Assembly: GCF_900184895.1 (NCBI RefSeq)
Contig: NZ_FXZK01000001.1
Coordinates: forward strand, 1,178,001-1,242,000
DNA: 64,000 nt
DNA from: Flavimaricola marinus
Lineage (GTDB): Bacteria > Pseudomonadota > Alphaproteobacteria > Rhodobacterales > Rhodobacteraceae
Direction: 5' to 3'
Shown: positions 38,040 through 41,081 of the stretch, in pieces
Position numbering within the stretch: the stretch's first letter is position 1
Layout: the number at the start of each line of letters is the position of its first letter
Notes under the pieces: generated by a model
Seen by the model: the letters and a program-made list of their open reading frames with translations, nothing else
Told to the model about the DNA's origin: nothing
Database searches by the model: none
Made by a program: the position numbers and the translations under genes

Positions 38040-38570
38040 GTGCCGGTGATGATCCCCGCCTGGGTCGACGGCGCCCTGACTCCGGTGGAGAAGTTGGAGG
38101 TGCATCAGCGCGGCCTGCGTCACAAGGCCGTCAGCGTCTTTGTTCTGAGCGAAGGCCGCGTGCTGATCCAGCGCCGGGCCTTGGGCAAATACCACACGCC
38201 CGGCCTGTGGGCGAACACCTGCTGCACCCATCCCGACTGGTCCGAAGACCCGGCCGACTGCGCCGTCCGCCGCCTGGACGAAGAGCTTGGGATCAAAGGG
38301 ATTTATCCCACTTTCCGCGACCGTGTCGAATACCGTGCGGAGGTGGGAAATGGCCTGATCGAGCACGAGCTGGTCGACATATTCGTGGCGATGGCGCCGG
38401 CCGATTTGCGCGTTGCCCCGAACCCTGACGAGGTCATGGCGACCCGCTGGGTCGACCTTTATGATCTAGCTGCGGAAGTGGCCCGGCGGCCCTCCGAGTT
38501 CACCCCTTGGATGCGCATTTACATGGCCGAGCACAAGGACGCGATCTTTGGGACGCTGGCCCGCGCCTGA
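38040..38570 (+). CDS. idi: Isopentenyl-diphosphate delta-isomerase, type 1
   Basis: A 176-aa Nudix-fold enzyme interconverting IPP and DMAPP for carotenoid and phytyl synthesis. It contains RHKAVSVFVL, the catalytic Cys in GLWANTCCTHP and the metal-binding CAVRRLDEELG. The GTG at 38040 or the ATG at 38049 (MIPAWVDG) may start it; the latter matches the family N-terminus. Last gene of the bchG operon. Confidence 0.93.
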   Translation: MPVMIPAWVDGALTPVEKLEVHQRGLRHKAVSVFVLSEGRVLIQRRALGKYHTPGLWANTCCTHPDWSEDPADCAVRRLDEELGIKGIYPTFRDRVEYRAEVGNGLIEHELVDIFVAMAPADLRVAPNPDEVMATRWVDLYDLAAEVARRPSEFTPWMRIYMAEHKDAIFGTLARA

Positions 38571-38614
38571 GCCCGAATCAAAGAGTTAATCCACCGAAAT
38601 TGCCTGCGGTCTGC

Positions 38615-38643
38615 CGTCGGTGTGACGTCGGTATCCCGTCGGT
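38615..38643. repeat. Three CGTCGGT iterons with 11-bp period
   Basis: CGTCGGT occurs at 38615-38621, 38626-38632 and 38637-38643, exactly 11 bp apart, so all three lie on nearly the same face of the helix. They lie 45 bp after idi in the 466-bp idi-dxs gap. A protein-binding array is possible. Confidence 0.5.
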
Positions 38644-38695
38644 GCCATTACCGACATTTCGAGTGTTATAGCTGCGACCGTTGCATGAGACGCAA

Positions 38696-39026
38696 GCCGG
38701 GCGATCGACTGCTCGCGGGGTGGCGATCCGCCCACGGTGTTGGGCGATTTATGGTCGGGTTGCCAGAGCTGGGATCGAGCCGTGCGCTGCGGGTGACGGA
38801 TCGCCAGCCCGTCGGGGCGGGCAGTCGATGGTCCGGCGGCCTTCGGCCTTTGCTCCGGACCAATCACACGAGCCGGGCGATGGTCTGCCTTGGCAGAGGC
38901 GATCCGGCGGTAGTGTTGGGCGGATTATTGTCGGTTTGCTGGTGCCGGGATCGAGCCGTGTGCTGCGAGCGCCAGATCGCCGGGGCGGGCCGCCGATGCC
39001 CGGCGCCTTCGGCTCGATCCCGGACC
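38696..39026. repeat. Imperfect ~160-bp tandem repeat between idi and dxs
   Basis: Unit 1 (38696-38861) and unit 2 (38872-39026) share long segments in the same order: GCCGGGCGAT, GGCGATCCG, GTGTTGGGCG, GGGATCGAGCCGTG, a GATCGCC then GGGGCGGGC pair, GCCTTCGGC and CGGACC. Unit 2 carries a perfect 13-bp inverted repeat, CCGGGATCGAGCC at 38945-38957 with its complement at 39011-39023. Unit 1 instead has GGTCCGG paired with CCGGACC. No convincing coding frame is seen; the region between the convergent idi and dxs otherwise appears empty. Confidence 0.7.
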
Positions 39027-39036
39027 TGACGCCGCC

Positions 39037-41004
39037 CTAGACCGACGCGCCGATTCGGTTTGCTTTGATCCCCGCCGCTTCCATCGCCGTTGCCGCGATG
39101 TCGACCGCCGTCAGCCCGGCTTCGGCATACATCGCGTCGGGCGCGGCGTGGTCGATGAACCGGTCGGGCAGCGTCATGGTCCGCATCTGGCAGGAGCCGC
39201 CCAGCAGCCCTTCGTTGGCCGCCATGTGCAGCACCATCGCGCCAAAGCCGCCTTGCGCCCCTTGCTCGACGGTGATCACCGCCTTGTGGTGCCGCATGAG
39301 TTGCCGGATCAGCGGCTTGTCCAGAGGCTTGGCAAAGCGGGCATCGACGATGGTGGTGCCGACCCGGTGCTCGCGCAGCAGTTTCGCCGCCTTGCGGCAT
39401 TCCCCCAGATGCGCCCCGAAGGAGAGCAGCGCCACGTCCGAGCCTTCGGCGACCACCCTGCCCTTGCCGATTTCGAGGACCGCGCCGCGATCCGGCATCG
39501 CCAATCCTTCGCCTTCGCCGCGTGGGTAGCGGAAGGCGATCGGGCCGTCGTCATAGGCGGCGGCGGTGCGCACCATGTGCATCAGTTCGACCTCGTCGCC
39601 GGCGGCCATGACGACCATGTTCGGCAGGGCGGCCAGATAGCCGATGTCGAAGGCCCCTGCGTGGGTCGGCCCGTCGGCCCCGACCAGCCCGGCCCGGTCA
39701 ATCGCGAACCGCACCGGCAGGTTTTGCAGCGCGACGTCGTGAACGATCTGGTCGTAGCCCCGTTGCAGAAACGTCGAGTAGATCGCGGCGAAGGGTTTGA
39801 GCCCGCTGCCCGCCATGGCGGCGGCAAAGGTCACGGCGTGCTGCTCTGCGATACCGACGTCGAAGACGCGGCTGGCGAACCGCTTGCCCATGATGTCGAC
39901 CCCGGTCCCGGAGGGCATCGCGGCGGTGACCGCGACGATGGACGGATCGAGTGCGGCCTCTTGCGTCAACGCCTGGCCGAAGACCTTTGTGTAGCTCGGT
40001 GCGTTGGGAATGGATTTCGCCTGAGCCCCGGTGCCGACGTTGAACTTGCCGACGCCATGGTATTTGTCGGCGGAGGTTTCGGCGGGGGCGTAGCCTTTGC
40101 CCTTGACCGTGCAGACGTGGATCAGCACCGGCCCGGTGGCGCGGGTGCGTGCCGCCCGGAGCACCGGCAGAAGCTGCGACATGTCGTGCCCGTCGATCGG
40201 CCCGATGTAGGAAAACCCGAGCTGCTCGAACAGCGTCCCCTGCCCGCCCGGAAGCCCGGTGACCAGTTGCCGCGCCCGCCGCGCGTGTTCGCGCAGGGGT
40301 CCGGGCAGAGCGGCCTCGAATCCTTCGGCCATCTTTTGCATGTCGCCCATCGGCGAGGCGTAGAGGCCGGAAAGGTATTTCGACATCGCCCCCACGGGCG
40401 GCGCGATGGACATTTCGTTGTCGTTGAGGATGACGAACATCCGGCGGCCCTCGTGGCCCGCGTTGTTCATCGCCTCGTAGGCCATGCCCGCGGAGATCGA
40501 GCCGTCGCCGATCACCGCGATGGAATCGCCCGTCGGCTGCCCCATGTCACGCGCCACGGCAAAGCCGAGGGCGGCGCTGATCGAGGTGGAGCTATGCGCG
40601 GCACCGAACGGGTCGTAGGCGCTCTCGGATCGCTTGGTGAAGCCGGACAGCCCGCCCTCTTGCCGCAGAGTGCGGATCCGGTCGCGCCGCCCGGTGAGCA
40701 CCTTGTGCGGGTAGCATTGGTGGCCGACGTCCCAGACGAGCTTGTCGCGGGGCGTGTCGAACACGGCGTGCAGCGCGACGGCCAGCTCCACCACGCCAAG
40801 CGAGGAGCCGAGGTGCCCGCCGGTTTCGGACACGGCCGAGACGACTTCGGCACGCAGCTCATCGGCCACCAGCGTCAGATCGCTGTCGGACATCCGCCGC
40901 AGATCGGCGGGGCCTGCGACGCGGTCCAGCGTCGGTGTCGCGGGCCTGTCGTTGAGCCCGTCATCGGGCCTGTCTGCGGGGCGATCTGCGGGGCCATGTG
41001 TCAT
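39037..41004 (-). CDS. dxs: 1-deoxy-D-xylulose-5-phosphate synthase
   Basis: A 655-aa TPP enzyme joining pyruvate and glyceraldehyde 3-phosphate in the MEP isoprenoid pathway. It has [18 protein letters not shown], the TPP motif [19 protein letters not shown] and [15 protein letters not shown]. The start at 41004 has AAGGA upstream and gives a short Asp/Arg/Pro-rich lead ([17 protein letters not shown]) before the conserved domain. Behind puf, as in Rhodobacter, it couples isoprenoid supply to photosystem synthesis. Confidence 0.95.
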
Positions 41005-41081
41005 CTGCGTATCCTTTTCGGCCAAAAGGCCCTAAGACGGAAATGGCGCCACACCGGTATTGAGCCGCTGCGACGCCATTC

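Follow-up and report, generated by a model that had tools for sequence, protein, structure and literature searches.

REP palindromes are 20–40 nt long, and among enzymes that mobilise palindromic repeats the Y1 transposase RAYT is the best known. Among enterobacterial repeats, ERIC (RU-1) measures 127 bp and YPAL (RU-2) 167–168 bp, and in the available extracts of the two reports the copy number of ERIC is given as 30 to 711 (PMC2759123; PMC10969869). The same extracts place ERIC at the 3′ ends of Yersinia genes, where transcript levels are altered through degradation (PMC2759123; PMC10969869), and describe TA ends with a TA target duplication for the ERIC/YPAL type (PMC2759123). Br-REP1 and Br-REP2 are reported from Bradyrhizobium and relatives; according to the accessible sections of that report, Br-REP1 consists of three stem-loops, of which the central one is represented at about 200 sites, and lies in the overlapping 3′-UTRs of convergent genes, where it is covered by cDNA reads (PMC5082802). 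Here we describe a repeat found in Flavimaricola marinus and its relatives. The explanation that we favour as a whole, and hold to be probable, is that of a dispersed, non-coding and non-autonomous ERIC/YPAL-like foldback repeat of roughly 165–180 bases, which would spread between sites and act as a barrier at gene 3′ ends.

The window, by which we mean the whole 64-kb stretch of DNA analysed (64,000 nucleotides), includes a gap of 466 bases between idi and dxs. The two genes are convergent, with their 3′ ends facing a tandem of two same-orientation copies of one sequence that lies within the gap (Table 1). The initial annotation had recognised two diverged units sharing blocks in a common order, and this is borne out: 116 nt align without a gap (38690–38805 with 38866–38981) at 75% identity and a spacing of 176, and are followed by a 32-nt block at a spacing of 168. 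With unit 1 as the query against the whole 4.79-Mb genome, unit 2 was recovered at E = 1.3e-19, so the likeness of the units is not due to chance, and two further places were found at 8e-19 and 9e-9. Unit 1 forms a larger imperfect foldback, overlooked in the initial annotation, in two segments, 38696–38716 with 38817–38837 (86% complementary) and 38716–38730 with 38797–38811 (93% complementary). Its folding energy of −101.9 kcal/mol (z −5.0) was equalled by none of 200 shuffles, compared with −83.8 (z −2.1) and 6 of 200 for unit 2. A perfect inverted repeat spanning 79 bp had been described in unit 2; it is present, with a length of 14 nt rather than 13, and pairs the loop with an altered 3′ end. 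The GGTCCGG/CCGGACC pairing noted in unit 1 is likewise there. What does not hold is the accompanying view that unit 1 has lost a pairing, since GGTCCGG/CCGGACC is the 3′ hairpin of the family, whereas the repeat in unit 2 is private to it and absent among the family helices. Unit 1, which keeps both the long foldback and the 3′ hairpin, is the typical copy, and unit 2 the diverged one.

Table 1. Positions of the repeat units, their parts, the flanking genes and the remaining copies in the F. marinus genome.
Feature	Position	Strand	Remarks
idi, isopentenyl-diphosphate isomerase	38040–38570	+	NCBIfam above cut-off; stops 125 bp short of unit 1
Unit 1, typical foldback-repeat copy	38696–38861	+	R1 match 38688–38863 including model flanks, 144.5 bits
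Unit 1 left arm	38696–38730	+	pairs with 38797–38837; starts with 5′ copy of threefold block
Unit 1 conserved loop motif	38744–38759	+	TTTAT core, here GCGATTTATGGTCGGG; from copy alignment
Unit 1 right arm	38797–38837	+	terminates in middle (complementary) block GGTCCGG, 38830–38836
Unit 1 3′ hairpin GGTCCGG/CCGGACC	38830–38861	+	inner stem, TTCG loop
CCGGACC, 3′ copy of threefold block in unit 1	38855–38861	+	
Unit 2, second and diverged copy, oriented like unit 1	38872–39026	+	84.0 bits; deletion in loop
Left arm of the 14-bp inverted repeat private to unit 2	38945–38958	+	
Right arm of the 14-bp inverted repeat private to unit 2	39010–39023	+	
dxs, 1-deoxy-D-xylulose-5-phosphate synthase	39037–41025	−	NCBIfam above cut-off; 10 bp beyond unit 2; start codon uncertain
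Own-genome copy 3	C42:197564–197741	−	R1, E<1e-10
Own-genome copy 4	C16:571836–572008	+	R1, E<1e-10
Own-genome copy 5	C16:833144–833317	+	R1, E<1e-10

The stretch between idi and unit 1 also holds an array of 11-bp direct repeats (CGTCGGTGTGA CGTCGGTATCC CGTCGGTGCCAT; 38607–38650). Counting overlapping matches, there are 95 instances of CGTCGGTNNNNCGTCGGT in the genome and 0 of the reversed pattern. By eye, at 12 loci, such repeats form intergenic arrays of 2–3 units, some of them about 80–100 bases upstream of a likely start codon; these arrays may represent an iterated binding site of wide occurrence or a separate repeat family.

A covariance model of 176 positions (R1) was built after a structure-free alignment of 25 copies (A1) had been made. 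The search for further copies suggested by the initial annotation proved fruitful, with five in total in the F. marinus genome at E<1e-10, both units among them, and very many in relatives. Matches to R1 occur in 104 of 198 genomes of the host family, our own included (one genome per genus, E≤0.001, strict filters). In 15 genomes picked as copy-rich and scored more deeply (E≤1e-4) there are 16 to 134 copies, and in one at least 150; counts for single genomes include 134, 92, 94 and at least 150. Among 289 genomes drawn from the class, R1 matched two (E≤1e-6, strict filters), our own and G256, both from within the family, and unit 1 itself matches 12 of 147 genomes at E≤1e-5, again counting our own. 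A genome of the same genus, G001, which is 92% complete, gave no R1 match at E≤0.001. The genome with at least 150 copies (G019) is identical to Pseudoroseicyclus tamaricis CLL3-39 over stretches of 2000 bases or more, one with 36 copies agrees with Salipiger bermudensis AmN7-7 over 3000 bases or more, and distant BLAST matches to the gap lie on plasmids of Salipiger, Sulfitobacter, Roseinatronobacter and Pacificitalea, where they fall in places for which the (incomplete) gene table lists no gene. From these named carrier records we infer that the host family, f1 in the searches, is Rhodobacteraceae in the broad sense; some of the records are placed by NCBI in Roseobacteraceae.

For the anatomy of the element we used 163 unique cores, obtained from the best 97 of the 126 rows of A2 (85 unique) together with 91 of the 92 rows of A5; at least one core is a clipped duplicate, L198 being part of a copy in L165, and this probably accounts for the one identical pair of copies in G019. 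The median core length is 175 (mostly 173–178), and the shortest, at 146, is clipped by a sequence end. Read along the plus strand, a core consists of a 5′ block, the outer and inner left arms, a loop of about 75 nt that carries the TTTAT motif, the inner and outer right arms, a middle block, a small hairpin and a 3′ block. The 5′ block is of the GCCGCGC or GCCGGGC type, the middle block is complementary to it and the 3′ block is the same as the 5′ block, while the loop of the small hairpin is often TTCG, TGCG or TACG. The arms form a foldback of about 30 bp with many compensatory changes. In the structure-free alignment, 93.9% of cells in the long foldback are paired, compared with 82.0 in shuffles, and two-sided changes are seen in 18 of its 31 pairs against 9.9 in shuffles (0 of 500 equal), figures to be read with the fact that the foldback was picked by a helix scan of the very alignment later used for counting. 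When the partner is shifted by 1–3 columns, pairing falls to 33–51%. The check for compensatory changes that had been proposed thus came out in favour of the fold, which is supported by covariation. A model that keeps the 3′ hairpin but replaces the long foldback by two separate local hairpins was rejected: 84.8% of its cells are paired, two-sided changes occur in 9 of 25 pairs, and its covariation is 0.159 against 0.301 for the long foldback.

Exchanging arms between copies of one genome gave worse pairing in three of four genomes (0/1000 each). The drop is clear in G073 (0.962 to 0.874) and G242 (0.931 to 0.833) and small in G019 (0.909 to 0.892); in the fourth genome, G184, the right arms are identical and the test is therefore without power.

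The anatomy also includes a 6-base block present in three covarying copies, 5′, middle and 3′. At the position where the block varies most, C-G-C has a weighted count of 40.9, G-C-G of 26.9 and T-A-T of 6.5. Among the 134 of the 163 cores that are gap-free here, the middle and 3′ blocks pair at 5 or 6 of 6 positions in 132, the 5′ and middle blocks pair in 97, and both closings are possible in 95. The threefold block thus allows two mutually exclusive closings, 5′–middle or middle–3′. We considered whether the mobile unit might itself be a conformational switch, copied in fixed orientation to an existing copy by an enzyme other than Y1, possibly via an ssDNA or RNA intermediate; this we regard as quite unlikely. 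In G019 just 66% of 5′–middle cells pair and in G073 this pairing is indifferent to swapping (432/1000), so some lineages lack an intact switch. Fixed orientation is seen in G019, where all 20 of 20 adjacent pairs less than 400 bp apart are head-to-tail among the 116 listed of at least 150 copies. Neighbours on opposite strands do exist elsewhere, L031, L096 and L104 being examples from other genomes. Since head-to-tail neighbours recur in relatives, the tandem in the window is no local accident.

Within each of the four genomes compared, the right arm of the foldback is better conserved than the left. A few stand-alone right halves of 73–82 nt (L021, L029 and L041) were also seen, which are without the loop and the greater part of the left half. 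Both features, as well as the block-hairpin-block layout of the 3′ end and the position of the palindromes behind genes, would suit a REP/BIME-type repeat moved by RAYT, a Y1 HUH transposase, with that 3′ layout as its recognition end. We consider this highly improbable and mostly refuted by two lines of evidence. The Pfam domain Y1_Tnp (PF01797, E≤1e-5) was found in 2 of the 15 copy-rich genomes and in 3 of 30 genomes overall, and not in our own, in a search whose control was positive in 5 of 14 known genomes. In addition, a core of about 175 nt with 30-bp arms is far above the length of a REP.

Two further structures were noticed beside the cores of particular genomes. Extra outer arms of the GGCCTGRAGCGGACGTTGGC type surround some cores of G184 and G242 (L083, L110 and L123–L140 in G184; L172, L176 and L182 in G242), giving by eye a foldback of about 255–265 bp. 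The motif flanks at least one side of 11 of 20 cores in G184, 5 of 15 in G242 and 6 of the 128 others, and both sides of 2, 0 and 0, respectively; longer outer arms were dismissed as a general feature. A second hairpin repeat, of the CGTAGGGTGGGTTTCCAACCCACC type, stands beside many of the 15 G019 copies displayed (for example L173, L175 and L179), and by eye a similar one lies near L021; it looks like a separate family of the REP type.

The surroundings of the cores show a strong bias. Two of the 163 overlap called genes and eight lie at sequence edges, which leaves 153 placed copies. Gaps between convergent genes hold 69 of these; control gaps, drawn from these same loci, some of which overlap, are convergent in 20 of 187 cases (odds ratio 6.9, p 8e-13). 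The excess persists for longer gaps, and at one copy per locus the count is 62 of 128. The gene calls behind these numbers are rough, coming from a codon-usage script trained on six genes of the window, so that recovery of those six is no independent check of the caller. Codirectional gaps hold 68 of the 153 copies, 31 sense and 37 antisense, and divergent gaps 16; the orientation of the repeat relative to genes is neutral. Among the 153 loci, no pair from two genomes has both neighbours in common and 29 pairs share one (called proteins of at least 60 residues, E<1e-10, 35% identity). With 16 of 153 copies in divergent gaps and neighbours not conserved, a riboswitch-like cis-regulatory RNA at a fixed site upstream of particular genes was rejected, and a vertically inherited, gene-linked RNA was rejected on the lack of any pair of loci sharing both neighbours between genomes. 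Nor did we see a link to the photosynthesis cluster: the other copies in our own genome are elsewhere, and neighbours are unshared between genomes.

The convergent preference is also what one would expect of a bidirectional intrinsic terminator that had replaced that of a sister species. Indeed, in G001 the gap after idi is short and has an ordinary 13-pair terminator, and the idi–dxs gap of the window contains one weak terminator match, against an average of 0.5 in shuffles. Such a replacement is nonetheless very unlikely in our estimation, as just one of the 163 cores carries TTTT within about 20 nt past its 3′ block. On this T-tract feature we rejected the intrinsic terminator class, defined by a GC-rich hairpin and a T tract. 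In Sulfitobacter, dctP has its own T-tract terminator ahead of the element, so a needed terminator role of the element is not general.

A different possibility is that the copies are small RNA genes or 3′-UTR RNAs under selection, multiplied by segmental duplication. The two-sided compensatory changes and the conserved TTTAT loop would fit this, as would the arms when read on the plus strand, where G-T pairs outnumber A-C pairs by 82.0 to 38.0 weighted cells (38.6 to 18.1 in an earlier count on the model-fitted alignment). That balance is reversed in the inner helix (5.1 to 12.5) and in the 3′ hairpin (2.0 to 6.0). As these two helices go the opposite way and the copies were chosen by a model that favours G-T, the excess is only suggestive of the plus strand as the folding strand. 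Selected RNAs are further at odds with the absence of any sharing of both neighbours between genomes, with the 31 to 37 split in orientation, with copy numbers that range between genera from no match to at least 150, and with the lack of a match in the same-genus genome G001. A scan of 38500–39100 for promoters of the sigma-70 type alone gave no match. We therefore judge the RNA-gene explanation unlikely.

The unshared sites, the uneven copy number and the higher identity of copies inside some genomes (G184) point to dispersal of the repeat, as far as comparison of sequences can indicate it. Mean identity between copies of one genome is 0.70–0.90 and hardly any pair exceeds 0.97, so most copies are old. 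Around two plasmid copies, from Salipiger and Sulfitobacter, we found no clean empty site or target duplication, and for the Salipiger copy no comparison was obtained over most of the query. Three plasmids of Sulfitobacter faviae have one copy in common, while on plasmids of Sulfitobacter dubius and DSM 110093 the element is mostly gone and a piece resembling the 3′ hairpin remains, which fits decay rather than precise absence. Among the Sulfitobacter plasmids listed, seven have parA at the corresponding place, the region itself having been read in two. Set beside a MITE of a DDE transposon, with its terminal inverted repeats, target-site duplication and autonomous parent, the element has a 5′ block whose pairing partner is internal and whose sequence returns at the 3′ end; no duplication was seen. 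By eye, TA is absent from the copy ends in A1, and the flanks of 20 G184 copies show no repeat. As a separate observation, L216 differs strongly from L017 and L218 (all on S. faviae plasmids) in the left portion of the loop, with flanks and arms near-identical, as if this segment had been exchanged.

Considering these data together, the following scheme can be proposed for the dispersed foldback repeat. An enzyme acting in trans would spread the element, and copies would survive where they are least harmful, between gene 3′ ends. Transcripts of idi and dxs that enter the element may form its hairpin of about 30 bp, and this could in turn protect or define their 3′ ends, as a barrier to exonucleases and to transcription from the opposite side, and keep convergent transcription apart. 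Through its threefold block the element would close as either the long foldback (5′–middle) or the short 3′ hairpin (middle–3′). The initial annotation had offered duplicated structured RNA or the remnants of a small mobile repeat; that outline stands, by virtue of the further copies and the covarying fold, with the roles of the two units reversed.

We found no prior description of the repeat in the open-access literature, subscription journals and preprints being outside the scope of that search. Against Rfam 15, the 64-kb window gave no match above the curated cut-offs, the three permissive matches scoring 14.6–15.8 bits against cut-offs of 50–70, and identity with a known RNA family was rejected accordingly. 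If our reading is correct, an undescribed structured repeat is present in about half of the genera sampled from a family to which well studied marine and photosynthetic bacteria belong; in some genomes it occupies around 100 sites or more, and it strongly prefers convergent gene ends. The repeat would then offer a natural experiment on how foldbacks spread free of RAYT and on how convergent transcript ends are shaped, and it could also account for gaps between genes that lack annotation, and for possible small RNAs, in the carrier genomes.

How, then, does the repeat compare with the systems already described? It is a short, non-coding, palindromic intergenic repeat, multi-copy and dispersed, and it is likened to RIME, the rhizobial mosaic element and an intergenic repeat of alphaproteobacteria, by description. 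In the same manner it resembles the CcrM-associated repeat of Caulobacter, likewise alphaproteobacterial and intergenic in the extract available (PMC10969869). Within what the extracts on ERIC and YPAL cover, the similarity extends to non-autonomy without an encoded transposase, stable stem-loops and a copy number that is uneven between genera. Here too the likeness is one of description, and the differences are a range restricted to a single family, the threefold covarying block and the habit of head-to-tail neighbours. Br-REP1 and Br-REP2 are also alphaproteobacterial, and Br-REP1 is likewise found between convergent genes; the consensus printed in the accessible part of that report differs by eye, and R1 is confined to its family among the 289 genomes of the class. 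With REP and BIME the repeat has in common multi-copy palindromic hairpins in 3′ regions, but it is several times longer, and a Y1 transposase was not found in 13 of the 15 copy-rich genomes (E≤1e-5); with Y1 in only 2 of 15 and a core of 175 nt in place of a short palindrome, membership of the REP/BIME class was rejected. By analogy, the repeat appears to work like ERIC, YPAL and REP, while its tested features place it outside the REP/RAYT kind.
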